Source: an archaeon (lineage in GTDB: Archaea; Thermoproteota; Thermoprotei_A; Marsarchaeales; Marsarchaeaceae). From it: a DNA stretch of 33,978 nucleotides. The stretch lies in contig JAJYZJ010000021.1 of assembly GCA_021800035.1 (NCBI GenBank), positions 1 to 33,978 of the forward strand, in the 5' to 3' direction. The notes beneath the pieces are model-generated. The model had not been told where the DNA came from and made no database searches. It saw only the letters and a list, made by a program, of their open reading frames with translations. Shown piece by piece: positions 549 through 28,174 of the stretch (the first letter of the stretch is position 1; each line of letters begins with the position of its first letter). The translations under genes were made by a program, and so were the position numbers.

Positions 549-2261
549 TCAAGGCTGACCGGCGTTGACCCACGAGTATGGTCCGGATGCGTAGTTGTTT
601 ACGACCGCTGTGGTAGAGTCGCGGTAGCCGAAGGGCACATCAGGAAAGAACAGGGCCGCTCCGTATTCATGAAATAGCTGAGTGGAGCCGTCCGCAGGGA
701 GCGGGCGATAGAGAGGAATGGTAGAATTGTAGAACCAGAATGAAGCCACAGGATTATCCTCGCCGTTCGTAGCATCAAGAAGGTAGGCGTAGCTACGCGT
801 TTCGTCCACAGTCACTGAAATGTACGGAGTGGTGTTCTCTAGGGCCCAGACCGGAATCGAAAAGTTGGCGCTGATTGAGTAGCTCCAGGGGACATACTTC
901 CCCAGCGTGCCGTTGTAGAACTCTCCCTTTAAATTGTAGACATATACTGCGTAGTCAGAAATCAATAACTGCTGCCGCTGCACAAGACTCTGGTTTCCTT
1001 CGCCAGTAAAGTAGGCTGACTCGTAGGGGTTCGCTGACCCAGTGAACGTCGAATCGGTGACGTTCATCTCCAGCCCGATTTCTCCAGCAAAAACCTGCAG
1101 CTCCCAGGGCGCATATTTCCGGTAGGCCGCGCTCGTGTTCGAGAGTATGAGCGAGTAGAGCCTACGGTAGACTGAATAGTAGAACCCCGGGCCCGCGAGA
1201 AAGGAGGCGGCATAGTTGTGAGAGTATACCTGCGAGCGCGGCGCGTGGCCCGCGGGAAAGACCCAGTAAGGCGGGGGGTTCAGTGCTTCCGAGAATTTGT
1301 ATCCGACATTGAAGTATGTATTGTTTCCCTGGCTCACTGAATCCGGGTAGGTCGAAAGGGTGAACGAGCCGATTGTCCAGTTTCTTACAAACGAAACTCC
1401 GTTCCAGAAGGCCGTGTCCGAATCCCAGACTGTCACTGTGAGCGAAGGGTAGGAGCCGGTTATGCTGGAGCCGGTGACGTTGAACTCGAGCACAGGATAT
1501 ACCGAACACGGGTTAAGGATGACGCCTCCGGTCGAGCTTGCGCAGGGCTGGGTGCCGTTCAGGAGCCAGAGGTTCACGCGCGCGCTGAACTCGACGGTGT
1601 AATAGTAATACATCACGGGGTAGGCCGTGTCGCAGTAGGCCGCGCACACCGCCTGAGTCGCGAGCGTGTGCTCCAGTACGGACCATCCAGGCGCTTCGCC
1701 GCTCGGCGGGTAGCTCATCTCGTACGGAGAAGCCCTAGGCGGCTCTTCCGAAGTGAAGTTGAAACTTTGGATGTGCGGCTCTGTCCCGTTCGAGTCAACG
1801 GGAAGCGGTCGGATGAGATAGGTCGCGCTGCGCCCCGAGGTGGAATACGAGGGATAGGCAAAGCCGCCCAGGTCAGCGGCGCTCCAGTAAGCGTCCGGGG
1901 AGATCCGGGAAGGGTTCAGCCTGAGCGCGGCCAGTATCGCGGCTGTCAGGTTTGTGCTCCCCTCTCCCGGGCCGCTCAGGAAGAGCTCGAGCGGCGCGGA
2001 AAGCTTGGTAGCGGTCGACGTAAGCGCAGAGTGATTGAGCGACACGGGGTAGCCCTGCGAGTATTCCTCCTCTTCCGTGGAAGTGAGCAAGAGTGCGGCG
2101 CTCCTGCTCCTGTTCAGGGAGGGAAAGAAGTTGTCCACGACTCCGGGTGCGGTCGGCCCCGAGGGCGGCTCCTGAACTCGCAGGTAGTAGAGCGCGTTCC
2201 CGAGGTAACCCAGGGCGAGTATCGCGAGAACCCCCCAGACTGCGGCCCACCTGATGTTCAG
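549..2261 (-). CDS. Membrane-anchored extracellular protein of the transfer locus
   Basis: This gene encodes about 570 residues. An N-terminal membrane anchor (WAAVWGVLAILALGYLGNA) is followed by a long Tyr/Ser/Thr/Asn-rich, beta-strand-like ectodomain with many N-X-S/T sequons and no recognised domain. The first ATG/GTG/TTG codon is a GTG at 2138, but the frame stays open upstream and encodes the anchor. I therefore start at CTG 2261, which overlaps the stop of the upstream PrgI-like gene as CTGA and has GAGG eight bases before it. It is the last gene of the VirB4-PrgI operon, so it may be an outward-facing part of the transfer apparatus such as an adhesin or tip protein. That role is inference; the anchor and topology are seen. 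Its composition resembles the Tyr-rich surface protein near 27 kb. Confidence 0.72.
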   Translation of the reverse strand: MNIRWAAVWGVLAILALGYLGNALYYLRVQEPPSGPTAPGVVDNFFPSLNRSRSAALLLTSTEEEEYSQGYPVSLNHSALTSTATKLSAPLELFLSGPGEGSTNLTAAILAALRLNPSRISPDAYWSAADLGGFAYPSYSTSGRSATYLIRPLPVDSNGTEPHIQSFNFTSEEPPRASPYEMSYPPSGEAPGWSVLEHTLATQAVCAAYCDTAYPVMYYYYTVEFSARVNLWLLNGTQPCASSTGGVILNPCSVYPVLEFNVTGSSITGSYPSLTVTVWDSDTAFWNGVSFVRNWTIGSFTLSTYPDSVSQGNNTYFNVGYKFSEALNPPPYWVFPAGHAPRSQVYSHNYAASFLAGPGFYYSVYRRLYSLILSNTSAAYRKYAPWELQVFAGEIGLEMNVTDSTFTGSANPYESAYFTGEGNQSLVQRQQLLISDYAVYVYNLKGEFYNGTLGKYVPWSYSISANFSIPVWALENTTPYISVTVDETRSYAYLLDATNGEDNPVASFWFYNSTIPLYRPLPADGSTQLFHEYGAALFFPDVPFGYRDSTTAVVNNYASGPYSWVNAGQP

Positions 2262-2680
2262 CGCGGGTCGCCCTCTTCGCCCGCAAAGAATCCGTAGGTT
2301 CTATTGAATCCTGGTTCCGAGCGCGGGTCCGGCCCTTGGGTACTGGGTGGGTTTTCGGAGGGGTCGCGCTGCGCGTCAGTTTTATTCGCTCCGCCCGGTC
2401 GCAATCCAGGAGAGAGGTAGAAGAACAGCGCCTGTACAAGAATGGCCTCCAGGCGCACGCTCTTGACAGGGTAGAACGCGAACGCGAGCGCAAAGAGAAG
2501 CACGGCAGCGCCCAGCGCTATCCCGCCCGCGGTATAGCTCGTTATCAGCTTGAAGGATAACAGGCCGCCCGCGAAGAGGTACATGAGCGAGCGGAAGGTA
2601 AACGAGAACAGGCCCGAAGCCAGCCTTTCGTCCGCGAAGCCCACCTCCTCGAGGATAAGGGCTTCCTTGATGCGCGCCAC
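2258..2680 (-). CDS. PrgI/VirB3-like small membrane protein
   Basis: A 140-residue protein beginning at GTG. Residues about 22-70 form two closely spaced hydrophobic helices (LMYLFAGGLLSFKLI, then GIALGAAVLLFALAFAFYPV), followed by a short basic stretch, another hydrophobic patch (AILVQALFFYL) and a polar Pro-rich tail. This size and topology, directly next to a VirB4 ATPase gene, is typical of PrgI/VirB3 proteins, which link VirB4 to the inner-membrane channel of type IV secretion systems. It starts ten bases after the VirB4 stop, with an AGGTGA ribosome-binding site overlapping that stop, and ends in a four-base CTGA overlap with the next gene, so translation is probably coupled. Sequence similarity to PrgI is weak by eye; the call rests on topology and context. 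Confidence 0.65.
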   Translation of the reverse strand: MARIKEALILEEVGFADERLASGLFSFTFRSLMYLFAGGLLSFKLITSYTAGGIALGAAVLLFALAFAFYPVKSVRLEAILVQALFFYLSPGLRPGGANKTDAQRDPSENPPSTQGPDPRSEPGFNRTYGFFAGEEGDPR

Positions 2681-2690
2681 TTTCGAGCCT

Positions 2691-4763
2691 TCACCTCTGC
2701 TCCTCTTCCTGGTCCTCCGCCGCGAGCCAGCGGCCCGTGGTCCCGAACTCTGCGAGTTCGTCCTCGCTGGGCTGAACGTGCACCGAAAGCAGGTGGTTGC
2801 CGCTGCGCATGAGCGCGTCCCCCTCTTCCGCGCCGAGCAGGGCCCGGGCTTCCTCCTCCCTCAGCCTGTAGACCTCTTCCAGCACTGAAAGCGCCGCGGG
2901 TCTCTGGCGGAAGAGGAGCGACGTCGCGGCCATCTCGAGTATTGTCCTTCCCGCGCCGCTCTTCGCCACGTCCCAGGGGCGCTGGGTGACGAACACGAGC
3001 GACTTGTTGTATTTTCTCGCCTGGCGCGCGAGACTCTCGAGAACTCCCATGGTCGCGGGGTAGTCCACGAACAGCCACGCTTCGTCCACAAAAAAGATAC
3101 CCTTTCCGTAGTCGGAGAACAGCTCGCGCTCGAGGTACACCGAGAGAAGCGTCATCACGAGCGCCTTCAGGCGGTTGCCGGAGCCCACCCTCGTTTCCTC
3201 CAGGCCTTTCAGCCCGAAGACCACGTCACCTTCGAGCTTCGGGGTGTCCCCCGAGAACACAAGCGAGTCGGGAGGGGCGAGAGTGCCTTCGAGATAGGAG
3301 AAAAGAGTGCGGGATGTCCCGTCCTTTTCTCCTTCGGCCCTGAGGAGCGCGCAGAACTTCTCCACGCTCTTCGCCTTCGCACCAAAGTCGAACACCCTTT
3401 TCCTCATCGCGTTCGAGAGCGCTTCGAAGCTTTCGTCCCTGGGGAGGTAGAACTCGGACAGGAGCGAAGACACGTCCTCGGGCCTGAACGAGCCCGGGTT
3501 TGCCCGCGCGAGGCGGAACGGGTCCAGCCCGAGCTCGGCTCCGGGGCTCACTTTGACCGCGTTCGCCGAACTGGTGATCTTCCCGAGCACGTTCACGTAT
3601 TCGTTCGCAGGGTCTATCCCGAAGAGCCTCAGGTCTGCTCCGTGCCTCGCCTTCAGGCGCTTGAGGAGAAGCTTAACGGCTAGCGATTTCCCCGCGCCGG
3701 TTTCTCCCAAGATTACGACGTGCGGGTTCGGCGCGGCCCAGGGGTCAAAGAGCACAGGCGAACCGGTTGCGGAAGTGCCGAGAAAGACGCCCCCCGGGTC
3801 CACCAGTTCTTCCGATATCAGCGGGTAGAAAACCGAAGCCGAGGCTGTGTCCACGTAGCGGGGCTTAAGAGAGGCAAAGCCCAGACTGGATTCGCCTGAT
3901 GTCCTGTACTCGTAGAGAGCGCGCTGAAAAAAGCGCGGTACGTCTATGTCGAACAGCCGCCTTCTCGCGACGCCCCGGATTGCCTTCCTCCTTTCCCTGA
4001 GCCCTGCAGGGTCCGGGGCGGAATAAAGGAACCAGCACCAGAACCTGAGCAGTTTCGCGCTCGAGCCCACGCCCTGGGCGAGCCTTTCGACTTTCGCGAG
4101 TTTCTGGTGAATCCGAATCGACACTACCCTTTCGGAAGCGAGTTCGGTGAGCCTGTTCTTGACGCGGTCGACCAGCGTTACCGCGGACGCCTGGTCGAGC
4201 GCTTCCCACTTGAACACGACTTCGTCCACGAGCGGGAAGTATTCGTAGAGGAAGCCCTCGGGAATCGTCGCAGGGAAGGAATAGAGCATGGCTAGCTCGG
4301 CAATCCGTGTTTGGCCGCTAGCCTCAAGGAGGAGCAGATGGTCCGCGCTTTCCGATATGAGTTTCTCTTTGTTCGGCGGGGCGGCGAGTTCTGCGTTAAA
4401 GAAATCGGAGCCGATCACGGGTTCCGCTGATTCGGCGAGTTTGGACCGCGCCTCCTTTTCCGCTTTGTGCATCCCCTTGGTCTCTTGCGCAGTCGGGCGC
4501 TCAATACCGAGATAGAACTCTGTGTAGCTCACCCCACTCCCCTCCGCCTTGCCCTCCACGCTGTAAAGCGTCCTCCTTGAACGACAGAGCACGAGTCCGC
4601 GGTCCACAAGGTTGAACAACTCAACGAACTTCCTTTCCAGACTGTCTTTTTCGTCGTCATTCAGTAGCTCGAAAGTGCTGGGCTGGAGAATGTACCAATC
4701 ATAAGCGTCATTACTGTCCGCATGGTAGGGGGAACCAGCCCGACTGGATTCAGTGCTTTGCAC
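2691..4763 (-). CDS. VirB4-like conjugation/DNA-transfer ATPase
   Basis: A 690-residue cytoplasmic motor ATPase of the VirB4/TraC/HerA-like class, which powers type IV secretion and, in archaea, Ced/Ted DNA import. The Walker A motif GETGAGKS is at residues 353-360 and Walker B GIFFVDEAW at 555-562, followed by the FVTQRPWDV sensor-like segment usual in VirB4. The N-terminal 300 residues fit a VirB4 N-domain. The open frame extends to 5000, but the upstream part is low-quality coding sequence. I chose GTG 4763 because a TATA-like box at 4783-4790 lies about 25 bases upstream, predicting a nearly leaderless message. It is the first gene of an operon with the PrgI-like and surface proteins. The VirB6/VirB2 partners lie separately at 11.2-14.0 kb. 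A HerA-type DNA translocase is the alternative, but the PrgI neighbour favours VirB4. Confidence 0.85.
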   Translation of the reverse strand: MQSTESSRAGSPYHADSNDAYDWYILQPSTFELLNDDEKDSLERKFVELFNLVDRGLVLCRSRRTLYSVEGKAEGSGVSYTEFYLGIERPTAQETKGMHKAEKEARSKLAESAEPVIGSDFFNAELAAPPNKEKLISESADHLLLLEASGQTRIAELAMLYSFPATIPEGFLYEYFPLVDEVVFKWEALDQASAVTLVDRVKNRLTELASERVVSIRIHQKLAKVERLAQGVGSSAKLLRFWCWFLYSAPDPAGLRERRKAIRGVARRRLFDIDVPRFFQRALYEYRTSGESSLGFASLKPRYVDTASASVFYPLISEELVDPGGVFLGTSATGSPVLFDPWAAPNPHVVILGETGAGKSLAVKLLLKRLKARHGADLRLFGIDPANEYVNVLGKITSSANAVKVSPGAELGLDPFRLARANPGSFRPEDVSSLLSEFYLPRDESFEALSNAMRKRVFDFGAKAKSVEKFCALLRAEGEKDGTSRTLFSYLEGTLAPPDSLVFSGDTPKLEGDVVFGLKGLEETRVGSGNRLKALVMTLLSVYLERELFSDYGKGIFFVDEAWLFVDYPATMGVLESLARQARKYNKSLVFVTQRPWDVAKSGAGRTILEMAATSLLFRQRPAALSVLEEVYRLREEEARALLGAEEGDALMRSGNHLLSVHVQPSEDELAEFGTTGRWLAAEDQEEEQR

Positions 4764-4782
4764 AACTGTTCGCCCGCGCAGC

Positions 4783-4790
4783 TTTAAGTA
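4783..4790 (-). promoter_or_regulatory. TATA-like box of the VirB4 operon
   Basis: On the minus strand the sequence reads TACTTAAAGC, an archaeal TATA-like box centred about 24 bases from the proposed GTG start at 4763. The transcript would be leaderless or nearly so. Confidence 0.5.
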
Positions 4791-5318
4791 CCCAAATTGA
4801 AGCGTCGGGCCCAGCCGATTTCCACATAGGGTCAACGTCACCCAAACTGCAGCATGACTGCCAAACGTCCCTGCGCAGGACCGATTCAAGAAGGAGCTAT
4901 GAGAGGAGAACGGAATGCCAATCGGGACTCCGAGAGCGTATTCCCTCGATGGAAATCCGAACGGGGTGCATGGGCTTGGTGGTATTGTTCTGTTTCGCAC
5001 CCACGAAGATTGGCTGCTTCTCTCCCCCCTTGTGCGACGGGGACAAGCTGACGAATCGGAGCAGCATCGTGCACATAGTTACGACTCCTCGGAATCGAAT
5101 CGCCAGAAAATCTTCCACTTAAATTCCTGAAGATGAGAATTAGTTTGTAGATATTGCCAACGAATATGTCAGTGCATATGACTCCTGTGCAGACTCATAG
5201 ACAGAATTCGCTCAAAAGATTCGGGTAGGTTGCGGAGATAATACTAGCTGCGATGACTATCTCTCCCCAAACTTCTTAAATGTTAGCCTAGCTATCAATT
5301 TTTTTGTCCTCCCAGAAA
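4791..5318. other. Intergenic, no gene seen
   Basis: I found no supported coding frame, RNA gene or clear repeat in these 528 bases. Short frames in both directions have implausible composition. Confidence 0.5.
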
Positions 5319-5774: not shown

Positions 5775-6785
5775 TTAAGGCGGAGGTTGCTGTGGCTGTG
5801 CAGGTGCGGGACTGGGCGCAGGAGGGAGGGCGGGAGGTCCCGGCGGCAATTGGAATGAAAGCGGAGTGATCATTTGAATCCTTTGAGACCTCTTGATGAA
5901 TGCCTTGCCTAGGTGATTCTCCACTATTTTGGCTGTTCCCGTAGCGCTGAAGGTGTGCGAACAAGCATGATATACTGTTAAAACCAGATCCTCGAGTTTT
6001 GGGTCAGCTTCTAGATCCTCGACTTTCAGTCCTATCTTCTTGGCAAGCACTTTGTCTAGGTGACGCCCGTGGGTCTTGAAGTTCTTGTGATTAGAGAGGT
6101 ACCTCGCAATCTTCGACGCACGCAGACCCGCCTTCGTGGTGCCCGCGAGCATGTATTGCTTTAACCAGTCAGACTCGAGTGACTTCGAAAGGTCTATTGC
6201 ATTCCTGCATTGGACAAGTAACCCAGGCCCATATTGCCCCAATATTGGGAGCCAGGTCCCTAGCATTTTCGGATCCTGGCATTGTTTCTTTGCGAGCTCG
6301 AACTGGTCAAGGATTGCCTGAGCTGGAATTGCCTGTCCGTTCAGAATGAGGATCGGGTCTATCGGACCGATAAACGAATGTGACCCCATTACGATACGGT
6401 TCGAGGCGCATGCAAGCATAGTCGCGGCTGACATTGCTATATGTGGAATAATGATCCTAATATCCGAAAACTTCGACCTTAGATATTTCACCAGCGCTTC
6501 CGTCGCTTCAGCTGAACCACCTGGACTGTGCAATATGAAGTCAAGTGAGTCCCCCCCGAGACCGTGAACGACTTCCATAAACGCTTCTAGATCCTCATCA
6601 TTGATATTGACAAGCTCAGGTGGGATAGCTCCCGAGACCCAATTCGATGCATAAACAATCACGTTTCGTTTTGTGTATTGATGGAGTTGAGCGAGATACT
6701 TTCTTCTTACGACATCGAAGGAGGAAATTCCGGGAGGAGGCTTGGTCTGCTGAAGCTCAATCAGTAGATCACCCCAAGTTGGCAG
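5775..6785 (-). CDS. SDH_sah family ClpP-fold serine protease
   Basis: A 336-residue protein of the SDH_sah (serine dehydrogenase proteinase) family, ClpP-fold proteases thought to act at or near the membrane. Visible motifs, numbered from the CTG start: SPGG oxyanion-type motif at 87-90, catalytic-Ser region AMSAATM with Ser119, and GPIDP at 140-144. The C-terminus is Pro/Ala/Gln-rich, which is unusual. The first standard start is GTG 6662, but the frame continues upstream with the family's conserved beginning (PTWGDLLIEL, then VVRRKYLAQLHQYTKRNVI). The only sensible initiator is CTG 6785, nine bases after a GAGG ribosome-binding site that overlaps the stop of the preceding small gene. It forms an operon with that gene and possibly the rhomboid-like protein, suggesting membrane protein quality control. 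Confidence 0.85.
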   Translation of the reverse strand: MPTWGDLLIELQQTKPPPGISSFDVVRRKYLAQLHQYTKRNVIVYASNWVSGAIPPELVNINDEDLEAFMEVVHGLGGDSLDFILHSPGGSAEATEALVKYLRSKFSDIRIIIPHIAMSAATMLACASNRIVMGSHSFIGPIDPILILNGQAIPAQAILDQFELAKKQCQDPKMLGTWLPILGQYGPGLLVQCRNAIDLSKSLESDWLKQYMLAGTTKAGLRASKIARYLSNHKNFKTHGRHLDKVLAKKIGLKVEDLEADPKLEDLVLTVYHACSHTFSATGTAKIVENHLGKAFIKRSQRIQMITPLSFQLPPGPPALPPAPSPAPAQPQQPPP

Positions 6786-11180: not shown

Positions 11181-13358
11181 TCAGCGGTTCAACTTCTTGA
11201 ATTCCTGGCTCTTTGTTACTTTTTGCGCACCGAACGCGCTGAGCCGAGTGTGCCCGAAAGGATTGTATCCTAACATCGTGTGCAGGTGTTCGCCGGCTCT
11301 CTGAGCATAGTGCGGACCGAGCGAGAGCACGTTGTTCCACATCACCTGTGGAACCGTCTTTACCGACGCGCCAGCCTTTCCGATAGTAGTTCGCTCCCAG
11401 ACCCCGGCGCTCGGACTGAACTGGGCTGACGATACGCTTTTCACTGCACGAGGAGAGCCGGGCTTCCAGCCCAAGCCCGGCGACCTGCCCGCGATTGTCA
11501 CGTCCGAACCCGCAAACCTTTCCCTGCCAGCGGAAGTGAACGCCTGATGCAGCCCCGTGTACGCGCGAGCCGATGAACCGGGCTGGACAAGTCTCGTGTA
11601 TCCCACTGTCGCCCCAAGGGCTGAGGAATAGGGAGCAGAAGCTCTCGCCGAGTATGCCGCCTGGGCGCCAGTCGCAGCCGTGCTACCCGCCGCTACGGGG
11701 GCCGACGTTCCTCCCCCTCCTCCCGTTCCCGCTCCCTGCCCTGAGCCGCCCCCGCCCGCGCCGAAGAATCCTCCCATGCCGGCCTGAAGTGATTCTCCCC
11801 TCGCCCTCCTGACGAGCCCTCCGAAGCCGGCACCGCCGCCGGTGAGCTCGAACGAAACGAAGAATGGAAGTAGCGCGAAGAACACCGGGCTGCCGAGAAG
11901 CACCGCGAGAGAAATCCCGGAGGGGTCAGCGTACGCGACCTTTCCGATGAGCGCGAGAACTGCCCCTGCTATGAGCCCTGATATAGCGAGCCCAACTTCT
12001 ATCTCGAACACAAACGAGATGACTTTCCTGAACGGCGGAAAGAGCCAGAGCACCGCGAGTATCGGGGCTGCGACGAAAAGCGCGCCTATCAGGACGAACC
12101 TGAGAACTGCGAGCGCTATCGTTACGAGAAGCGCGAACGTGATGTCTGCCGCGAGATTCGCTAGATAAGGCACGAAGTAACCAACCGAAGCCCCGAGGAT
12201 TATTATGGGGAGATCGGCGGCGAGAAGTAGCCCGGGGTCGCCGTAGTCCACGAGGTGAACTCCTATCGTGTTCACCATCACCGCAAACGCGTTGTAGAAG
12301 TATGGTAGCGTGAGTATTATCGCGACGACGAGCATCAGCTCCTTCGAGAGCCCTATCACCGCCCCCGTGAGATCCTCCGCTCCTTCGGTCCAGAGCGTCC
12401 AGAGTATGTCCGAGACAAGGAATATCCCGACGAGCCCGAGCGCAGCGCCCTCGGTGTACGAGTACATCGCCGCAAGAGCGTCTCCCATCCCGGAGCCGTA
12501 GCCCGTGGTGTGGCCCACGGTGGGCATCTGCACAAAGAAGGAGAAGGGAGCGTTCAGGACCCCCTGAATCCAGGTGAGCGCGGGTAGTATTGCGGACACG
12601 AACCCGAGGAAGCCTGCGACTATCCAGCCGAAGGCGCCCGCCGCGGGAGGGCTCGCGCTGTTGTAGACCGTGACCACAGCCGAGCCGCTTATCGAGCCCC
12701 CGGCTCCGCTGTCCGTGGCCACTATCGTATAGGTGCCGTTCGCCTGGTAGATGTGCGCGGCGCTGAAGCTCGCGCTCGAGCCGAGGTTCGTAGTCGAGCC
12801 GTCACCCCAGCTCAGGCTAACGGAGCCCGAGAAGTTGGGCGGGAAGACTCCGCCAGTGACTTCCACTAGGAGCGGGGCCTTTCCGGCCGCGGGGCTCGCG
12901 GTTAGCTCCATATAGCCGTAAGTGGTCCCCGGGAGCCCTGTCGCCCCGAACCAGGCCGGGCCGAAGTTGAACGCAAGGAGAATGAGCGCCGCGACAGCGA
13001 AGTAGCCCACGGCCTTTTCGATGTGGCCGAGCAGGAGATAGAGCGCGGAGGCTCCCACGGAGAGAGCCGCGCCCGCGTAAGCTAGGAGCGTGATGTCGGA
13101 CGCCCCCGGAAACGAGTTCGAGCTCGCTCGAAAGGCGGACGTGAGAATTATCCAGCCGAAGGAGAGCACGAATGCGGCTGCGATGGTACCCACGAGGAAG
13201 CGCCCTCCTTCCTTCGGTTTGCCCATGGCGAAGAGCAGAGCGGACAGCGCGACCCCCGCGGCTACCGCGACCCAGACCGCGTAAAAGAAGTAGTCCACAA
13301 GACCGTTCAGGAAGCGCGCGAGCGAAAACAGCAGAAGCATCGACGCGGCCAAGGTCAT
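11181..13358 (-). CDS. VirB6/TrbL-like channel with pilin-like N-terminus and PKD domain
   Basis: A 725-residue polytopic membrane protein. Order, numbered from the ATG: residues 16-78 mirror the neighbouring VirB2-like pilin (LVDYFFYAVWVAVA, then LSFGWIIL); two more helices follow; a PKD domain lies at 150-234 with the characteristic SWGDG at 183-187 and GTYTIVATDS; then about seven membrane helices at 245-530 form a VirB6/TrbL/CedA-like channel; a Gly-rich hinge and a 140-residue basic tail end the protein. VirB6-type proteins form the inner-membrane DNA channel of type IV secretion. The start is ATG 13358 behind GGAAG; GTG 13379 is an alternative. It lies downstream of the VirB2-like gene, and the VirB4/PrgI genes are about 6.4 kb away. 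The pilin-PKD-channel fusion is unusual. Confidence 0.8.
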   Translation of the reverse strand: MTLAASMLLLFSLARFLNGLVDYFFYAVWVAVAAGVALSALLFAMGKPKEGGRFLVGTIAAAFVLSFGWIILTSAFRASSNSFPGASDITLLAYAGAALSVGASALYLLLGHIEKAVGYFAVAALILLAFNFGPAWFGATGLPGTTYGYMELTASPAAGKAPLLVEVTGGVFPPNFSGSVSLSWGDGSTTNLGSSASFSAAHIYQANGTYTIVATDSGAGGSISGSAVVTVYNSASPPAAGAFGWIVAGFLGFVSAILPALTWIQGVLNAPFSFFVQMPTVGHTTGYGSGMGDALAAMYSYTEGAALGLVGIFLVSDILWTLWTEGAEDLTGAVIGLSKELMLVVAIILTLPYFYNAFAVMVNTIGVHLVDYGDPGLLLAADLPIIILGASVGYFVPYLANLAADITFALLVTIALAVLRFVLIGALFVAAPILAVLWLFPPFRKVISFVFEIEVGLAISGLIAGAVLALIGKVAYADPSGISLAVLLGSPVFFALLPFFVSFELTGGGAGFGGLVRRARGESLQAGMGGFFGAGGGGSGQGAGTGGGGGTSAPVAAGSTAATGAQAAYSARASAPYSSALGATVGYTRLVQPGSSARAYTGLHQAFTSAGRERFAGSDVTIAGRSPGLGWKPGSPRAVKSVSSAQFSPSAGVWERTTIGKAGASVKTVPQVMWNNVLSLGPHYAQRAGEHLHTMLGYNPFGHTRLSAFGAQKVTKSQEFKKLNR

Positions 13359-13622
13359 GCTGCTTCCTTCTTCACGCACCGAGGCTGGTCTCGAGCTTGG
13401 TTCTCGGCTCAGGCAAGTAAAATTACCAAAAGTTGCGGGTGAGCATCTGTAAGAGCGGCTGGTTGCTTCAACCTGAGCCCAGTTGCGAGCCTCATATTAC
13501 TTCTCCCCCAGCGTTTGGTCCCTCTTTTCACTGAGCTCGTGTTTTCTTCTCTGTTGGCCGCCGGCTTCAATGCCGCGCTGCTTCCTCCCTCTGCCCCATA
13601 CTCTTGCTTGCTCCAACGCAAG

Positions 13623-13952
13623 TCAGAGCGCCCCGTTCAGTATGGCCCAGCCGAAGCTGAGTAGGAAAGCTCCTATGAGAACCCCTTCGAGCGCCCGCTT
13701 GAATCCGTCGCTCGTGTGTCCCCCGTTATGAACCGCTATCGCTGCGTAGGCGAGCATCCCAGCAACAGCGATCCATGCGGCGTAAAACAGGAAGTCCACG
13801 AGTGTTATGAGGCCCTGCGAACCGGGAAATGCCTGCGGGCTCACCGTGAAAGGAGCCTGGGCGGCCGCGAACGCGACTTCGCGAGCAAAAGATGCAAGCG
13901 AGCAAAAAAGGCTCGCAGCCAGTACCCCCCTTAGGCGCGTGCGTATGCCCAT
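13623..13952 (-). CDS. VirB2/CedA1-like conjugative pilin
   Basis: A 109-residue protein. A basic, hydrophobic N-terminus (MGIRTRLRGVLAASLFCSLA) ending near AFAAAQA looks like a cleavable signal peptide. The mature part has two membrane helices (51-75 and 89-108) joined by a short polar loop (HNGGHTSDGFKR), the standard architecture of VirB2/TrbC pilins, which in archaea form Ced/Ted DNA-import pili. Residues 51-64 and 98-105 match the N-terminal domain of the VirB6-like protein downstream almost residue for residue. It is the first gene of the locus, 31 bases from a TATA box shared with the divergent DUF1286-like gene. The 264-base spacer to the VirB6-like gene holds only an unconvincing 70-codon frame. 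Confidence 0.8.
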   Translation of the reverse strand: MGIRTRLRGVLAASLFCSLASFAREVAFAAAQAPFTVSPQAFPGSQGLITLVDFLFYAAWIAVAGMLAYAAIAVHNGGHTSDGFKRALEGVLIGAFLLSFGWAILNGAL

Positions 13953-14024: not shown

Positions 14025-14645
14025 TTGAGGCTCAAAACTCATAACCTTCTCGCATGGGGTGTGCTCTGTCTAACCGCCGCCCCATTCCTCAAAGCGGTTC
14101 CAAGCGTCCCATTTTTTGCGAAGTTTTTACTCTGGCTTTCCCTACTCGCCGCGTCGGTAATGGTGAATCGCGCAATGGACAGGTGCGGGCATAGGTGGGT
14201 GGTCAGAAGAGATGGAGTCTGGATACCCCGCCGCTCAGCCAAAACCCACAGCCTGCGGGGTGCTATCATCCTTGGATTCCTGCTGCTTCAGCCGTTCGCC
14301 GCGCTCATGGATGCCGTGATGATTTACGGCTTGAGTACCCACACTCCTGCCCACGCGCAACCGGCTTTCGGAATGGTCGTACTGTGGGCCTCCGCAGCGA
14401 GCATAGCTGTCGGCTGCATGGGAATTCTCGTCGCGCTTTCTCACCTCTTTCTCGACTCGCTCACGGAGGGCGGAATATACAGAAGGAATAAACCAAAGAG
14501 AGAAGGCGCTGAGAACCACCCGCTATGGAGGAGATGGGCTCTCGCACACTACCCCTACGACTCTTGCCGGCTCAACGGTTTCTTTGCGCTGCTGGGCCTA
14601 GCGCTTGCGCTCATCGCATCTCCACTTTCATTGACCGCCTTCTGA
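14025..14645 (+). CDS. DUF1286-like membrane-bound metal-dependent hydrolase
   Basis: 206 residues with about five membrane helices. The beginning MRLKTHNLLAWG and the conserved block SHLFLDSLTEGGIY match DUF1286, an archaeal relative of the YdjM/LexA-binding membrane hydrolase family. The candidate metal ligands are His6, His in AKTHSLRG, and His and Asp in SHLFLD. The family start at M-[RK]-L-K-T-H supports the TTG at 14025, whereas no ATG fits. The enzymatic substrate is unknown. It is divergent from the VirB2-like pilin and shares its promoter region, so it may be regulated with the transfer machine. I recall this family on archaeal plasmids, which fits, but I cannot check that here. Confidence 0.7.
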   Translation: MRLKTHNLLAWGVLCLTAAPFLKAVPSVPFFAKFLLWLSLLAASVMVNRAMDRCGHRWVVRRDGVWIPRRSAKTHSLRGAIILGFLLLQPFAALMDAVMIYGLSTHTPAHAQPAFGMVVLWASAASIAVGCMGILVALSHLFLDSLTEGGIYRRNKPKREGAENHPLWRRWALAHYPYDSCRLNGFFALLGLALALIASPLSLTAF

Positions 14646-14771: not shown

Positions 14772-15520
14772 ATGTAGCCGAAGTATCAGGAACTGCTTCT
14801 TGACGAGGACGTGCGAAGATGGTTTGAGAACCTCAGGGCGAAGTCAGTTCTCACGGCAACAGTGGCATTGAGAAATCTGGGGCATTATTGCGAGCTTACA
14901 GTAACGACACCAAAGGAAATCATGAACAGAGCCCGATTAAACGACAAGGATTTCCGCTACGAGTTTGCGGACTTTGTCAGAAAGCTTGAGAAGGAGGGCA
15001 AGGCATGATCATACATTGCTAAGGTTCAAGAAGGTCATTCTTTCATGGCTGAAGTTTAACGATATCCGTTTGCAGTTAACCGTTAACATATCTGGCGAGA
15101 ATGAAACACCCACGATAGCTAACGAGAGAGTTCCGAGCAGGGAAGAACTGGCAAGGATAATGAGAAAAGCCACATCAAGAGGCAGGGTTGCCATAGCGAT
15201 CATGGCATTCTCAGGCCTCAGGCCGGAGTCCCTGGGAGACTATGAAGGCACAGACGGTCTCAGGCTTGGCGACATCAAGGATTTGCATATATCGGATGAA
15301 ATCCGGTTTGAGAAGGTTCCAGCAACCGTAATGGTCAAGAGCAAGCTGAGCAAGGCAAGGCACCAGTATTTCTCTTTCATGGGAGAGGAAGGTGCAACCT
15401 ACATCAAGGAATATCTGGAAGAGCGGAGAAAACAGGGAGAAGAGCTTACCTATGAATCCCCGCTACTGCAGTTTGACGTGAGAGGTGTCAAGAAGAACTC
15501 TTTCCTTCCAAGTTCTATCA
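14772..15520 (+). pseudogene. Degraded archaeal tyrosine integrase, truncated
   Basis: A broken tyrosine recombinase. The second codon is TAG (ATG 14772, TAG 14775), followed by an intact core-binding domain (PKYQELLLDEDVRRWFENL, LTATVALRNLGHYCEL). A TGA follows after EGKA (near 15008), and a frame change in SYIAKV leads into ILSWLKFNDIRLQLTVN. The catalytic-domain start is preserved (FSGLRPESLGDYEG with the first catalytic Arg, LRLGDIKDL, SKLSKARHQYFSF). The gene ends abruptly after KKNSFLPSSI, where ParA-like sequence begins, so the second Arg, His and Tyr are lost. It is related to the remnant at 9.4-10.0 kb. Together they show repeated integration by one integrase type. Confidence 0.8.
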
Positions 15521-15580
15521 ATGATCATATCCATCGCCAACCAGAAGGGAGGCTGCGGAAAGACAACCACTGCAGCCTGA
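15521..15580 (+). pseudogene. ParA-type ATPase start fragment
   Basis: Nineteen codons reading MIISIANQKGGCGKTTTAA and then TGA. This is the N-terminus and deviant Walker A of a ParA/Soj-type partition ATPase. It is cut off at once and joined to Orc1/Cdc6 sequence at a 10-base direct repeat. Only the fragment remains, so no function is expected. Confidence 0.75.
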
Positions 15581-15588
15581 TCATATCG
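15522..15588 (+). repeat. 10-base direct repeats flanking the ParA fragment
   Basis: TGATCATATC occurs at 15522-15531 and 15579-15588, exactly bracketing the ParA-like fragment between integrase and Orc1/Cdc6 remnants. It is a likely micro-homology recombination scar. Confidence 0.6.
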
Positions 15589-16102
15589 TATTCCATGAAT
15601 ACAGCACGGAGGAGATTCGTGAGATATTGAGGATGAGGGCAAAGGAGGGCCTGAATGAATGTGGCAAAGAGTCCCTGGGCCTCTTGTCTGCACTTCTCGT
15701 ACGAGACTACAGAAGCGACGCAAGGATCCAAATAAGGCTCTGGAAATTCTTGGCAGAAGCAATAAATGGGACGAGGACTCAATCAAGACAGCACTGAAGC
15801 AGGCTTACGTGGAGGTGGAAGGCGAAACGCTAAAGAACCTTGGAGACCGGGACCTGCTGATACTGGCAGCACTGGTCAAGAATCAGGATACCAACAGGGC
15901 GTATTCCGAAGTTTCTGCATCCAGTCATTTGTTGCTCAGGGGAGTGAGCAAGTCAACGTTCTTCCAGAGCGTCAATTATTTGCAGAACCTTGGCCTTATC
16001 ACATTGATCAAGAAGAAGATAGGCAGATATTACACAATGGAGTCACAAATATTATTATCTGATGAGTCTATTGTATACGGGGAGCTAAGAAAGAGGCTTT
16101 AG
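15577..16102 (+). pseudogene. Orc1/Cdc6-like replication initiator, C-terminal fragment
   Basis: Only the last part of an Orc1/Cdc6 initiator remains. The first frame reads DHIVFHEYSTEEIREILRMR, typical of the AAA+ lid, then GLLSALLVRDYRSDARIQIR (sensor-2-like). Near 15740 the frame shifts to ALEILGRSNKWDEDSIKTAL, followed by a winged-helix DNA-binding domain (LGDRDLLILAALVKN ... STFFQSVNYLQNLGLITL) that ends at 16102. The Walker A and B half is gone. With the ParA start and the integrase, this suggests a decayed integrated plasmid or virus that once replicated autonomously. An assembly join is an alternative. The wing-containing part alone could still be translated from a downstream start, but I see no good one. 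Confidence 0.7.
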
Positions 16103-16129
16103 TTAGCACTCAATATCGTGGTGTTTTAC

Positions 16130-18226
16130 ATGGTTGATTCGTCGGAGGAAAAAAGTGATCCCACTCAGAGAAGTGGAAATGGACAAAGGAAATCACTAAT
16201 TGAAGAGCTGCCAAGAATAGTAGAAAGAGGAAAAAAAGAGGCTCAAAGAATCCTCGATGGACTTTCTAAGACACAAAGAATAACTCTTCAGACTAATGAA
16301 TTGGTCCTGCCGACTAAGGCCGTTGGAGAATTAACCAAGTTCACGGGTCAAGCTGTAAAACGAGAAAACAACAATGAGTTTCTTAACAGGCTCATATACG
16401 GTGATAATCTGCTTGCGATGCAGGCACTTCTAGCTGGGGACCCAGACACAGGACTCCCCTCAATGAGGGGCAAAATAGACCTGATTTATATCGATCCACC
16501 CTTTGATAGCAAGGCAGACTATAGAATAAAAATACATCTTCCATCTGTAGACATTGAACAAAGGCCTTCGGTTATAGAACAGTTCGCTTACTCGGATACT
16601 TGGAAGGATGGGACAAAGTCATACTTGGAAATGATTGTTCCAAGACTTGTTCTAATGAGGGAACTATTAAGTGAACAGGGCTCAATATATGTGCATATCG
16701 ATTGGCATGTCGGACACTATGTAAAAGTTATAATGGATGACATTTTTGGTAAAGAAAACTTCGTTAACGAAATAATATGGAAAAAATCAAATAGCCCTAA
16801 AGCTCAATCTAAGGGGTTTGGAACACAACATGACACTTTATTTTTATATTCTAAAGGGCGAGAATTCATATATAATCCAATAAAAAGAGAACCTGATGAA
16901 GATTATTTAAAATCTTTCTCAATGGATGACAAAGATGGAAAAGGGGCATATCAGAGCGTTGCCTTGGTTGCTGGGGGTATTCAACGTTCCGAGCACAGAA
17001 AGGTTTTTGATTTCAAAGGTGTAGTTGCCCCGTGGTTATACACTCCTGAAAACCTTGAGAAATTCTGGCAAGAGAACAGAATTATTAAAACTAAAAATGG
17101 GTATAGGTTAAAAGTTTATCTGGAAGATGTAGGTGGGCCTCTCATTTCTGATATTTGGTTTGATAAGAATGTAAGTCCTATTCAGGGACAGTCCAGTGAA
17201 AAATTAGGATATGATACTCAAAAGCCAAAGTCACTGTTAAGCCGGATTATTTCAGCCTCAAGCAAAAAAGACTCCTTGATCGCAGATTTCTTCTGCGGTT
17301 CCGGAACGGCGGGCTCTGTTGCAGAAAGACTTGGAAGAAATTGGATTATGTGTGATCTCGGTAAACCTGCTTGTATGATCTCTAGAAAACGTCTCATTGA
17401 TCAAAATGCAAAGCCATTTCTTTACCAATCAATTGGAGACTACCAGAAAGAACAGTTTGAAAGATCGCAATTCAGGCGTATAGGGGACCTTGCTCACGTT
17501 GTGATTAACCTGTATGGTGCACTTCCCTTTCCGATGCAAGAAGGCACTCCTACCAATCTAGGATATATAAAACAAAGTAAAACCTTGGTATTTGTCGACT
17601 CTCCCACAAAAATCACTGGTTATGTTACACTCAAGAAGGCTCAGGAGCTAAGAGCTTCCTTCATGGGTGGATGGAACAAAGTAATTGTCCTTGGTTGGAA
17701 CTTTGAGGCTGAGATAGGAAGGACCATAGACAGCCTGAATGATGATAACCTCGAAGTACTGGTGATTCCCCCGGACCTGCTGGAAAAGCTAAAGCACAAA
17801 GCAGACTATGAGAAACTCATAAAGGAAGGCAGCGTTAGATTCAGCTCCTTACAATACCTCACTGTTAAACCAGTGATCAAGAAAGCAGCGGAAGACAACT
17901 TGGAGGAGATAACGATTGAACTTGAAAACTACGTTCTCCTGTCCCCAGATGCACTACCTCTCGATAGGTCGGATAAGGACAAACTTGAAAAGATCATTGA
18001 GGAAGACCCTTTGAGTCTCGTCGAGTACTGGAGTATCGATCCGGAATATGATGGGGAAGTATTCAGGAGCAAATGGCAGGATTACAGAGAAAACCACGAA
18101 GGTACATCGAAAGTCGATAGGAAAGTGAAGCTGCTCGTCCCCCGCGTTAATGGGGTAAGAAAGGTCTGCGTGAAAGCGGTGGACGTATTCGGGTTTGAAA
18201 GCGTGGCGATCAAAGAGGCCAGTTGA
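16130..18226 (+). CDS. mod: Type III restriction-modification DNA methyltransferase (Mod)
   Basis: A 698-residue adenine-specific methyltransferase, the specificity and modification subunit of a type III system. Motif IV DPPF (LIYIDPPFDSK) lies at about residues 122-125 and the AdoMet-binding DFFCGSGTAGS at about 388, with motif IV before motif I, the beta-class order used by Mod proteins. The region between should hold the target-recognition domain. ATG 16130 is preferred; an in-frame GTG pair lies at 16118-16123. The stop overlaps the Res ATG as TGATG, so the two are coupled. The segment is more AT-rich than the backbone and follows integrase debris, suggesting transfer. No stop or frameshift was seen, so the gene looks intact. 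Confidence 0.9.
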   Translation: MVDSSEEKSDPTQRSGNGQRKSLIEELPRIVERGKKEAQRILDGLSKTQRITLQTNELVLPTKAVGELTKFTGQAVKRENNNEFLNRLIYGDNLLAMQALLAGDPDTGLPSMRGKIDLIYIDPPFDSKADYRIKIHLPSVDIEQRPSVIEQFAYSDTWKDGTKSYLEMIVPRLVLMRELLSEQGSIYVHIDWHVGHYVKVIMDDIFGKENFVNEIIWKKSNSPKAQSKGFGTQHDTLFLYSKGREFIYNPIKREPDEDYLKSFSMDDKDGKGAYQSVALVAGGIQRSEHRKVFDFKGVVAPWLYTPENLEKFWQENRIIKTKNGYRLKVYLEDVGGPLISDIWFDKNVSPIQGQSSEKLGYDTQKPKSLLSRIISASSKKDSLIADFFCGSGTAGSVAERLGRNWIMCDLGKPACMISRKRLIDQNAKPFLYQSIGDYQKEQFERSQFRRIGDLAHVVINLYGALPFPMQEGTPTNLGYIKQSKTLVFVDSPTKITGYVTLKKAQELRASFMGGWNKVIVLGWNFEAEIGRTIDSLNDDNLEVLVIPPDLLEKLKHKADYEKLIKEGSVRFSSLQYLTVKPVIKKAAEDNLEEITIELENYVLLSPDALPLDRSDKDKLEKIIEEDPLSLVEYWSIDPEYDGEVFRSKWQDYRENHEGTSKVDRKVKLLVPRVNGVRKVCVKAVDVFGFESVAIKEAS

Positions 18227-21150
18227 TGGTAAACATAAAATCCCTTGGCACCAAGGATATCCCATTAAAACTTGCGAAAAGAATAACCGAGAAAGCCGAC
18301 GAGTTGTGGAAATCCGGAGACTTCATGCAGAAAGTCACACCCATAACACAGGAACTTCTGAAATTCTGGGACCCAGAGGGTATTTTCTCTGAAGAAAGAA
18401 ACATTAACTTCCATGTGGGCCAATGGCAAGCCATTCTGAATGTGATTTACGTCCATGAGATTCTCAAACTCAAGAGTGTTGGAGAAATCTACGATCATAT
18501 CTATCCTGAATTGTTGGCTCAAATGGACCCGCTTGATCTGAAGCGGGATAAGTACGAGCATCAGAAGTATTGCGTTAAGATGGCCACAGGAACTGGCAAG
18601 ACCTGGGTCCTTGATGCATTGCTGATCTGGCAATACCTAAATTCAAAGTACGAAGAAAACGAAAGCGGTGAGTATTCCAGGAATTTCCTCCTGGTTGCTC
18701 CGGGAATCATTGTCTATGAAAGGTTGTTAGATGCGTATCTGGGAAAGCGAAGAGAAGATGGGAGCAGGGATTTTGAGCAGTCCGATTTCTGGAAATTTGA
18801 AAAGCTCTTTATTCCTCCCGCACGCAAGGACGAGATCTTTGGATTTATCCAGGGCTGTGTATCACAGAAGGAAGAAATCGGCAAGAAGGTGACTGGTGAC
18901 GGCTTGATCGCAATAACCAACTGGCACCTGCTGACAGAGGATGAGGAGGCTATTGATGTCGAATCCCCGTTGGACCAGCCAGATATGACGGTGAATGAGC
19001 TGCTGCCGATTACACCCGGGAATTCACAGGGACACTCGCTGGAAGAACTGGACAATCAATATCTCAGGGGCCAGGAACTGGATTACCTGGCTAATTTACC
19101 CAATCTCGTAGTTTTCAATGACGAGGCCCACCACCTTGGAGAGATGAAGAAATCGGACGAAATCGTGGAGAAAAAATGGCAGGAAGCACTCGACAAGATA
19201 TCAGAGAACAAGAAGAGCCGCCTCATTCAAGTTGATTTTTCTGCAACTCCCTATGTGGTAACAGGAAGCGGCCAGAGCAGGGTACAAAATCACTTTCCGC
19301 ACATTGTGGCCAATTTCGAACTGGTGGATGCAATAAAGAAAGGACTTGTGAAAACCGTTGCAATCGACAAGAGAAAGGAGTTCGGCGCCATACCTCTGGA
19401 TGACCTGGAATTTAAAGCGGAACGAGAGGGCAGGCAGGTGTCAAGTCTTTCTGATGGTCAGAAACTGATGTTGAGGGCTGGAATGAAGAAACTCAACATA
19501 CTGGAGCAGGAATTCACAAAGCTTGATCCAACAAAATACCCGAAGATGCTTGTCGTTTGTGAAGATACTAAGGTAGTGCCTCTTGTTGTGGCCTTTATGA
19601 CGCATGAGGGCTATTCCGGGGATGAAGTAATGGAGATTCATTCCACCAAGAAAGGTGACGTCAGTGAAGAGGAGTGGAGGGCAATAGAGCAGAGATTGTT
19701 CGATATAGATCGACATGAGAAACCAAAGGTGATAGTTTCTGTCCTGATGCTCAGGGAAGGATTTGACGTAAACAACATATGCGTGATAGTTCCTCTCAGA
19801 TCTGCATCCTCTTACGTTCTTCTAGAACAACTGATAGGAAGGGGCCTGAGGCTGATGTGGCGTGGACCAGACTACGATGATATGAGAGCAGAAAACCGGG
19901 AAAAACTCCTGGTGAAGAAGGAGGAGCCGGACAGTTACATCGACATATTGAGCGTGGTCGAGCATCCAAACTTTATCGAGTACTATGAAAGAGTCCTTGC
20001 GGGAATGGTTGGCAAAGTTGGAGAAGAGCCAGCAAAGACAAAGGTTGTTGGTGACCTGGTCAGGGTCGGGCTCAAACCAAACTACAGAGTTTATGACCTT
20101 TTCTGGATCATAATATTGCAGGAGAAGGAGGAAGAACTGGCGGTTCCTGACTTCTCTATTGAGAAGCTTGCACCTTTCCCCATGAAACTGAAAGATTTGA
20201 GACCTTTGGTAAAGAACAAGGGAGACACCTTTTACAGCGAAGAACTCACGGTCAAGACAACCTTTGGAGAATACATAGTCACTGCCGATATATTCACGGC
20301 CAAGAGCTACAATTCGTTCATCCAGAAGGTGGTGAATGCCGTCTCTGTGATCCATGTCAATGCCAGAGGAAGAAAGCAGAGAGATTTCCCGGTGATGCAG
20401 GTGAATTCAGCGTTAATCGCCAAGCTTACGGATGAGTACATAAGACACAGGCTGTTCGAAGAGGAATTTGATCCTCTCAAGGACAACAACTGGCGCATCC
20501 TGTTGATAACACGGCAGAGCATAATCAAACACATAGTCAGTAACATTGCCCAAGCCGTATACGATTCCATGAAGAGCCTCAAGGTGAACGACGCAAGGAT
20601 AGTGAAGAAGTATTTCTCAGAAGTCCCAGAAATAAGGGTAAGAGAAACTTATGCGATTAACGCTGCAAAAAACATTTATGAAAAGATTGCGTACCCGTCT
20701 CACAGCGGCGGTTTTGAGAAGGACTTCATCGAGTTCATAGATTCAGACTCAAAAGTAAAGGCGTTTGTGAAGATAAACGAATACTACAACGATTTCGCTA
20801 ACATCATCTATATCCGGGACGACGGACTGTTGGCACATTACTACCCTGATTTCATGATCAGGGCATGTGACCAGATTTACCTGGTTGAGACAAAATCTGA
20901 AAGAGATATGAGCAACAAGAACGTGCAAAATAAGAGGCTGGCAGCAATAGATTGGGTAGACAAGGTGAATGAACTGGAGCCCCAAGAGAGGATGAACTGT
21001 AACTGGAGCTATGTGCTGCTCAGCCAGAATACATTCGAGCAGATGAAGAAGCAGGGAGCCACCACTTGCGAGATACTGGAATATGCCAAACTTACAAAGG
21101 CAAAGGTGAGAGGTACGCTGGGAGATTACATGGGCCTTAAGGACTATTGA
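18226..21150 (+). CDS. res: Type III restriction enzyme, helicase-nuclease subunit (Res)
   Basis: A 974-residue SF2 helicase with a C-terminal nuclease. Walker A ATGTGKTW is at about residue 120, DEAH (VVFNDEAHHLG) at 298, DFSATPY at 336 and the motif VI region QLIGRGLRLMWRG at about 540. The PD-(D/E)XK site appears at the C-terminus as YPDFMIRACDQIYLVETKSE (about 872-891). Res works with Mod to translocate along DNA and cut unmodified sites. Its ATG overlaps the Mod stop (TGATG). The length matches family members and the frame is intact. A RelE/ParE-like toxin gene starts 23 bases after its stop, probably in the same transcript. Confidence 0.9.
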   Translation: MVNIKSLGTKDIPLKLAKRITEKADELWKSGDFMQKVTPITQELLKFWDPEGIFSEERNINFHVGQWQAILNVIYVHEILKLKSVGEIYDHIYPELLAQMDPLDLKRDKYEHQKYCVKMATGTGKTWVLDALLIWQYLNSKYEENESGEYSRNFLLVAPGIIVYERLLDAYLGKRREDGSRDFEQSDFWKFEKLFIPPARKDEIFGFIQGCVSQKEEIGKKVTGDGLIAITNWHLLTEDEEAIDVESPLDQPDMTVNELLPITPGNSQGHSLEELDNQYLRGQELDYLANLPNLVVFNDEAHHLGEMKKSDEIVEKKWQEALDKISENKKSRLIQVDFSATPYVVTGSGQSRVQNHFPHIVANFELVDAIKKGLVKTVAIDKRKEFGAIPLDDLEFKAEREGRQVSSLSDGQKLMLRAGMKKLNILEQEFTKLDPTKYPKMLVVCEDTKVVPLVVAFMTHEGYSGDEVMEIHSTKKGDVSEEEWRAIEQRLFDIDRHEKPKVIVSVLMLREGFDVNNICVIVPLRSASSYVLLEQLIGRGLRLMWRGPDYDDMRAENREKLLVKKEEPDSYIDILSVVEHPNFIEYYERVLAGMVGKVGEEPAKTKVVGDLVRVGLKPNYRVYDLFWIIILQEKEEELAVPDFSIEKLAPFPMKLKDLRPLVKNKGDTFYSEELTVKTTFGEYIVTADIFTAKSYNSFIQKVVNAVSVIHVNARGRKQRDFPVMQVNSALIAKLTDEYIRHRLFEEEFDPLKDNNWRILLITRQSIIKHIVSNIAQAVYDSMKSLKVNDARIVKKYFSEVPEIRVRETYAINAAKNIYEKIAYPSHSGGFEKDFIEFIDSDSKVKAFVKINEYYNDFANIIYIRDDGLLAHYYPDFMIRACDQIYLVETKSERDMSNKNVQNKRLAAIDWVDKVNELEPQERMNCNWSYVLLSQNTFEQMKKQGATTCEILEYAKLTKAKVRGTLGDYMGLKDY

Positions 21151-21173
21151 GCGCAAGGTAGAGGTCGATATTC

Positions 21174-21440
21174 ATGAGCTATACTGTAGAATCCACGGAA
21201 GCATTCGAGAAGGAATTCTCCAGGAACCATAAGGACGAAAAAGAATGGTTGCTTCGTATGACTGAAAGACTGGAACAGGAACAGGAACCGCAGTCAGGGA
21301 AGCCGTTGAGAGGCAAGCTTCACGGACTATGGCAGCTCAGAATCGGCTCTTTCAGGGTCTGGTATGAAATAAACGAGGAGCAGAAGAAAGTGACGCTCAG
21401 AGCAATCATTCACAAAGACGAAGCAAAGAAGTATTATTAG
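21174..21440 (+). CDS. RelE/ParE family toxin
   Basis: An 88-residue protein (MSYTVESTEAFEKEFSRNHK) with the RelE/ParE-fold pattern: the helical segment is followed by GKPLRGKLHGLWQLRIGSFR and VWYEINEEQKKVTLRAIIHK, ending KKYY. RelE-type toxins cleave ribosome-bound mRNA; ParE-type members poison gyrase. The conserved RIGxFRVWYEI is closer to RelE. It starts 23 bases after Res and likely shares its transcript. Its 3' end overlaps by four bases a convergent antitoxin-like gene that carries a premature stop. If the antitoxin is inactive, the toxin must be silent, weak or neutralised elsewhere. Confidence 0.85.
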   Translation: MSYTVESTEAFEKEFSRNHKDEKEWLLRMTERLEQEQEPQSGKPLRGKLHGLWQLRIGSFRVWYEINEEQKKVTLRAIIHKDEAKKYY

Positions 21441-21613
21441 AGCTCTTTCAGGAACTCTCTAACGTTCCTGACTCTTCCCTTCTGTATGTCCTACTCGCTC
21501 CTTTCCGGTTGATCCATAGCATACTCATTCTCAAGAGTTTCAATGGTAGCCTCAAGGCTATCCAGATCCGATTTTGGAATGCTTACAAGCCTTGACTGTT
21601 TTGCTGTGGTCAT
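21437..21613 (-). pseudogene. RelB-type antitoxin with premature stop
   Basis: A 59-codon gene beginning ATG: MTTAKQSRLVSIPKSDLDSL, EATIETLENEYAMDQPERSE, then TAG at 21491-21493, then DIQKGRVRNVREFLKEL and a normal TAA. The pattern (basic N-terminus, long helix, C-terminal REFLKEL) fits RelB-like antitoxins. The TAG may be a mutated CAG, leaving a 40-residue product without its C-terminal toxin-binding part. It is convergent with the toxin and overlaps it by four bases, unlike the usual tandem antitoxin-toxin order. A TATA-like AGGTATTAAAATC (minus) lies about 27 bases upstream, predicting a leaderless message. It could be the cognate antitoxin or one left by a lost neighbour. Confidence 0.65.
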
Positions 21614-21654
21614 AATATAACTCTATATTCTTTCAGATTTTAATACCTTTTGGT

Positions 21655-22080
21655 ATGCTTCGGCTCAAATTCACCTCGACTTTCAGCCACCCCTCTTTGA
21701 GCCTTCGCCAATTACCATGTGCCCTTCGCTCGTCTGTACGCCGAGCACAGGACGCCATGCTTCGACTCCAATCAAAATTCACCCCTAACCCCTCTTTTGA
21801 CTTACGTCTCGCACTCTTCTTCGAAGAGCCCCTCATTCGCAAGGCTCATTCAGGGTGGTGTCCTGTGCTCGCCGCTCGTGGTGTATGTGTGGTGCTACAC
21901 ACCTTCGCTTCGCTTGGTGTTCCACACCACCCACCGCTAACGCTTACACCACTCGGTCTTGCTTCGCAAGACTTCCGGCTCGCTTCGGGCACATTATTCT
22001 CTCCTGCGGAGTGCAATTTGAGGGGAACAGGGGGAGGGGAATTTTTGACCGCACAAGAACGCTACGCTCAGTGCGGAATT
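21655..22080 (+). repeat. Intergenic repeat cluster with TTC-loop palindromes
   Basis: Two copies of the GCTTCG...AATTCACC repeat at 21655-21675 and 21757-21786. Short perfect palindromes with a TTC or TCC centre follow: CTCTTCTTCGAAGAG (21814-21828), GGTGTTCCACACC (21916-21928) and GTCTTGCTTCGCAAGAC (21956-21972). Open frames here show low-complexity Arg/Leu/Ser-rich translations, so I see no gene. Such elements suggest a non-coding mobile repeat family or the remains of one. Confidence 0.5.
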
Positions 22081-22200
22081 ACGGGGATATAAGGGGTTCT
22101 CGTACCGTGCTGCTCTTCAACTGTTCAAGGGACAATACCTGCACGGCACTGCGACCATACTTTTTGAGAAAAGGTAGGCTAAAAGGAGTATTCAAGAAGG

Positions 22201-22228
22201 TATTTATATATTGAAGGAAAGTATATTC
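22201..22228 (+). promoter_or_regulatory. Candidate TATA boxes for the OLD nuclease gene
   Basis: Two AT-rich boxes, TATTTATATA at 22201-22210 and AGTATATTC around 22220-22228. The second is about 35 bases upstream of the ATG at 22259, the better archaeal spacing, and would give a leader of about nine bases. Confidence 0.45.
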
Positions 22229-22258
22229 TGTAGATAACTGTAGGGGGTTCAAATTCCT

Positions 22259-26361: not shown

Positions 26362-26367
26362 CGCATT

Positions 26368-28146: not shown

Positions 28147-28174
28147 CCGGTATCCAAATGGTTCTTGGCCAACC

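Follow-up and report, generated by a model that had tools for sequence, protein, structure and literature searches.

How pilins are recruited, and how a pilus is started, in type IV secretion systems (T4SSs) is an unsettled question. The stretch of archaeal DNA analyzed here, a window of 33,978 nucleotides covering contig JAJYZJ010000021.1 of a member of the Marsarchaeaceae, raises it in a particular form. Two adjacent genes on the same strand encode a small pilin, with a signal peptide and two transmembrane (TM) helices, and, with the pilin gene on its upstream side, a multi-TM channel protein whose own N-terminal hairpin resembles that pilin and is followed by a PKD domain (Table 1). What is this hairpin, how widely is it found, and what could it do?

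Table 1. Features of the locus, numbered from the first base of the window
Feature	Position	Strand	Evidence or comparison
Large secreted-looking protein, conserved in closest loci	549..2138	-	comparison with closest loci
Conserved gene beside VirB4 in closest loci	2261..2860	-	32-47% over matched stretch
VirB4-type ATPase of same system	2691..5000	-	PF12846 2.3e-16, TIGR00929 2.8e-18
Conserved small gene downstream of channel; also at S. tengchongensis loci L070/L071	10403..11008	-	blastp 27-28%, E 1e-9
CedA/TedA-like (VirB6-like) channel protein, 732 aa with the GTG start; residue 8 (ATG at 13358) is the probable start	11181..13379	-	
Gly/Ser-rich basic C-terminal tail, predicted cytoplasmic	11184..11831	-	net charge +11.6, sequons depleted
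Channel core helices, residues 309-516	11832..12455	-	
PKD/Ig-like domain spanning residues 152-241, with SWGDGST at 190; predicted to be extracytoplasmic	12657..12926	-	profile, charge, sequons
Hairpin 2, residues 95-146, probably a second, diverged repeat of the pilin type	12942..13097	-	hhalign
Hairpin 1, residues 19-84, pilin-homologous	13128..13325	-	hhalign 98.8%, own-genome E 1e-7
CedA1/TedC-like (VirB2-like) pilin, 109 aa, AFAAA|QA signal peptide site, then TM hairpin	13623..13952	-	homologues in about 20 genomes of class
Hairpin of the pilin, residues 45-109; homologue of hairpin 1 in the channel	13626..13820	-	profile alignment
DUF1286 membrane protein; DUF1286 gene also on pRT2	14025..14645	+	PF06939 9.7e-11

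An earlier note on this DNA had pointed to two motifs shared by the proteins, and both occur with the spacing described: the channel has LVDYFFYAVWVAVA from residue 27 and LSFGWIIL from residue 72 (45 residues apart), and the pilin has LVDFLFYAAWIAVA from residue 51 and LSFGWAIL from residue 98 (47 residues apart). The repeated segment that it placed at channel residues 16-78 is present, although its exact limits differ by a few residues. In a search of the whole genome, the channel query matched its own pilin (E=1e-7, 44% identity, residues 22-84), and the same query also matched pilins in genomes G010, G028, G029, G035, and G040. Alignment of a profile of 13 pilins with one of 16 channel hairpins using hhalign gave a probability of 98.8 and an E-value of 4.5e-17 over 61 columns, and a rerun from an alignment with cleaner ends gave 98.9%. 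The three other TM pairs of the channel and the PKD domain scored <1% against the pilins, channel TM pairs reached up to 5% against hairpin 1, and a reversed hairpin profile reached 19%. None of 200 column permutations, in which columns stay intact and the pattern of hydrophobicity is preserved, attained the real score (80, versus a permuted maximum of 26). The channel HMM also retrieved pilins in at least 12 loci, with E-values from 1e-6 to 1e-10. Since the permuted, reversed, and TM-pair controls fail to match, we interpret the likeness as homology: judged by these profile comparisons, hairpin 1 and the pilin are ancient paralogues. A generic likeness between two TM hairpins, which the earlier note had raised as what an HMM-HMM comparison might reveal, and which segments that are short (about 64 columns), hydrophobic, and Gly/Ala-rich would favor, is highly improbable in light of the controls and the pilins recovered by the channel HMM, and was rejected.

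The surrounding genes indicate the type of system. The locus encodes a VirB4 ATPase, and the nearest relatives of the whole gene set are Sulfolobaceae loci, including the S. tengchongensis plasmid pRT2. In the closest loci, the VirB4 proteins beside the closest channels are 42-45% identical to that of the window, the pilins are 45-51% identical, and several accessory genes are conserved. We therefore place the locus among archaeal VirB4-type T4SSs, near the Ted and Sulfolobus plasmid systems. As described for CedA and TedA, the N-terminal region of the channel is homologous to the pilin of its system, the protein has 6-7 or more TM helices, and its gene lies beside that of a two-TM pilin and near that of a VirB4/CedB ATPase; the pilin, like CedA1 and TedC, is a short two-TM protein with a TedC-type cleavable signal peptide. 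The Ted system of Thermoproteales consists of the TedA channel, the TedC pilin, and the VirB4-like ATPase TedB (PMC9905601). The window shares with it the VirB4-type ATPase, the multi-TM channel beside the pilin gene, and an AxA|QA signal-peptidase site in the pilin (the published TedC cleavage motif is AVA|QA). The homology of channel N-terminus and pilin is also found in the Ced system of Sulfolobales (CedA, CedA1, CedA2, and CedB). However, a canonical Ced system was rejected, as the ATPase is VirB4-type and CedB (NF041017) had no match in the genome from which the window comes (G000, 85% complete); CedB scored above cut-off in 13 of 60 genomes of the class. No VirD4/TraG-like coupling ATPase is encoded in the window; elsewhere in the genome, contig C72 carries a homologue of that of pRT2. 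The T4SS genes probably belong to a relative of pRT2, either conjugative plasmid or integrated element, which would presumably be mobile.

The two proteins resemble bacterial VirB2 and VirB6 (R388 TrwI, A. tumefaciens) in the N-terminal membrane helices, the large extracytoplasmic region, and the proposed recruitment of pilins, but no sequence match between the bacterial and window proteins was detected. As no Pfam, NCBIfam, or PHROGs model linked the channel to VirB6, CedA, or TedA, we call it VirB6-like on the basis of published HHpred/profile comparisons and gene order. Sequence searches of the solved conjugative pilins in the PDB with our pilins gave no match, and the predicted structure of the pilin (pLDDT 70; helices 3-31, 45-75, and 81-108) had no significant Foldseek match in the PDB; both searches included the solved pili 8DFT/8DFU. 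The AlphaFold model of the channel, made with one added sequence (L087), had a pLDDT of 41 and was set aside. L087, which is the same locus as G120, was the one relative found in scans of genome contigs and viral contigs.

The arrangement proved to be common. Hairpin 1 was present in 16/16 members of the aligned clade, and a search of archaeal genomes for the domain order, as the earlier note had suggested, found hairpin, PKD, and channel in that order in most of the 29 homologues examined. A WGDG-type PKD domain occupies the same position in 18 of these 29 channels, which come from related archaeal genomes; a one-off insertion of the PKD was rejected on this count. At the same site, L066 has WGDN, L067 a divergent beta-domain without WGDG, and L069-L071 only a short linker. 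In a phylogeny of the channel core, the window falls in one clade with S. tengchongensis pRT2 and the Sulfolobaceae loci L067 and L069-L071 (100/100), whose VirB4, pilin, and accessory genes also resemble its own. Because the sister clade carries the domain, the simplest reading is that L069-L071 lost it; the PKD would then be dispensable in some systems.

The earlier note knew of no described system with this arrangement, a view that did not survive comparison with the literature. Beltran et al. (2023) had already reported homology between the CedA N-terminus and the CedA1 pilin, and likewise between VirB6 and VirB2 (PMC9905601). In the 29 homologues, the hairpin occurs as a regular element of the fold, an outcome that the note itself had named as refuting its idea. 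Thus, a pilin-like channel hairpin, published for this family in 2023, is together with the PKD the ordinary design of most of the relatives examined. What is new here is the family-wide, predicted outward PKD domain, the probable second pilin-like hairpin, and the clade-matched resemblance of hairpin and pilin. PKD or Ig domains are not mentioned in PMC9905601, and a search of the open-access literature found no paper describing a PKD domain in these channels.

The PKD match of the window channel alone is weak (PF00801, E 0.032). Across the family, 5/8 members match PF00801 (best 4e-6) and the PKD profile matches the PKD domain of 4xed (E 2.6e-4), confirming a WGDG-type beta-sandwich after the N-terminal hairpin, as first described. 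It also appears to face outward, as had been suggested. The loop of hairpin 1 is basic, with a net charge of +1.4 per sequence. The PKD domain is acidic (net -5.1) and has 24 N-glycosylation sequons versus 14 expected, and the C-terminal tail is basic (net +11.6 per sequence) and has 3 sequons versus 9.9 expected. From these counts, the N-terminus and PKD are predicted to lie outside and the C-terminal tail inside. The PKD would then lie beyond the hairpins on the outer side of the membrane, much like the large periplasmic loop of A. tumefaciens VirB6, which presumably follows the second TM helix, a position matching that of the PKD. We know of no PKD domain in bacterial VirB6. The PKD would give archaeal mating channels an outward domain, with contact to the S-layer or the pilus base as a candidate role.

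Between hairpin 1 and the PKD lies hairpin 2, which scored 90.7% against the pilins and 92.8% against hairpin 1 in hhalign. These matches exceed all permutations (0/200) and are far weaker than those of hairpin 1. Hairpin 2 is probably a further pilin-like repeat that arose by tandem duplication. The distant Ted-like homologues L073 and L076-L079 apparently have a single hairpin before the PKD, unlike the window clade, which has two.

In the window clade, hairpin 1 and the pilin resemble each other more than elsewhere. Its hairpin 1 shares 38.4% identity with same-clade pilins, compared with 22.6% with the hairpin 1 sequences of other clades and 29.5% with pilins from elsewhere; outside the window clade, hairpin 1 and pilins are only 26% identical. 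The clade interaction was 0.141 (95% bootstrap 0.05-0.25), in an alignment of 64 columns and with a test picked after the tree was seen. Matching of six subtypes was equaled in 12 of 720 permutations and, with the window clade removed, was not significant (12 of 120). Two columns illustrate the pattern: at column 15, every channel and pilin of the window clade has Y, where the channels and pilins of the other 13 systems have W, and column 56 is F in the window-clade channel and pilin and aliphatic in both proteins elsewhere. In trees, the hairpins of the window clade joined the pilins of that clade, and tests rejected reciprocal monophyly (p 0.028 and 0.038). Because support for the clade of hairpins and pilins dropped from 100/98 to 67/97 when fast-evolving, long-branched rows were added, we regard the tree as suggestive of either co-evolution or one old replacement of the hairpin.

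A reading that accommodates these data, and that we consider probable, is that the two genes encode the pilin (CedA1/TedC/VirB2-like) and channel (CedA/TedA/VirB6-like) of an archaeal VirB4-type T4SS, with the paralogous hairpin 1 serving as a docking site for pilins and the PKD facing outward. Hairpin 1 would offer a pilin-like surface within the membrane that recruits pilins, and docked pilins would then be lifted onto the channel core, where the pilus would grow. Such a division of sites has been proposed for R388, in which the membrane holds only helices α1 and α2 of VirB6, mutations there lower conjugation, all 50 top-scoring co-evolving VirB2-VirB6 pairs involve α1 of VirB6, and the authors place a pilin recruitment site at the membrane helices and a separate assembly site above, on the channel dome (PMC9259494). 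The clade-matched resemblance would fit a docking role like that of VirB6 helix α1. Since VirB2 and VirB6 are homologous, programs that detect co-evolution may misread paralogous similarity as contact; the R388 signal may be inflated for this reason, and the published co-evolution in α1 may partly reflect paralogy.

A more specific version of docking is possible and is offered tentatively. The hairpin of the window clade could have been overwritten by, or kept in step with, its cognate pilin through gene conversion, domain replacement, or tight co-evolution, yielding a matched docking pilin that sets specificity, with hairpin 2 and the outward-facing PKD also belonging to the pilus base. A channel with a recognizable copy of its pilin, the two changing together in one clade at least, would be a simple natural experiment on pilin specificity.

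Two other explanations accept the homology. Hairpin 1 may reflect mere ancestry and a common membrane-insertion route, with no pilin-specific role now. Beltran et al. point to a shared export route and shared descent (PMC9905601), and the extent to which hairpin 1 has drifted in other clades (26% identity to pilins) is in line with this. However, the matched resemblance in the window clade requires a reason, and T-pili are lost when parts of the VirB6 N-terminus are deleted (PMC6120205), making ancestry alone doubtful. We consider it unlikely that hairpin 1 is a tethered pilin, forming the first (base) layer of the pilus lattice and nucleating the pilus. Its strong homology to pilins and the clade-specific residues that it has in common with the pilins of its own clade (columns 15 and 56) are what such a subunit would have, but in R388 assembly is placed on the channel dome and recruitment at the membrane helices (PMC9259494), and hairpin 2 and the PKD would need room beneath the pilus. 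A literal first pilin is thus possible and less supported than docking.

Several further observations concern the neighborhood and related loci. On pRT2 (L148), both the channel (WP_338604967) and the pilin are annotated only as hypothetical, and a 2025 review lists Sulfolobus conjugative plasmids with VirB4, VirD4, and a permease-like protein (PMC12857230). As this list contains no pilin, the pRT2 pilin seems to be unrecognized. Contig C72 carries a second, truncated copy of the channel core (G000:C72:20622-21224; L015; L084:8539-9201) that is 90-97% identical to that of the window and has stops in the matched stretch. Since the gene for a TraG/VirD4-like protein (C72:1184-3277) lies on this contig too, it probably harbors a related conjugative element. 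Within the window, a ClpP/SDH-type serine protease (PF01972) is encoded at 5775-6662 (-). Relatives with about 28% identity adjoin other archaeal T4SS channel genes (L068:11085-12050 and L072:6100-7065), and the protease is possibly an accessory peptidase of these T4SSs. Beside the T4SS genes, positions 16118-24283 (+) hold defense genes: a Type III restriction-modification pair and, after it, a nuclease of the OLD family (AAA_15 plus TOPRIM). An ORF at 14965-15630 (+) has a weak phage-integrase match (PF00589, E 0.0013) and is possibly a remnant of the integrase of the element. Finally, the cluster at 25180-33960 (-), with archaeal type IV pilin-like proteins (29153-29833 and 29968-30492), a T2SSF protein (33016-33960), and Ser/Thr/Tyr-rich secreted proteins, is probably a separate type IV pilus locus.
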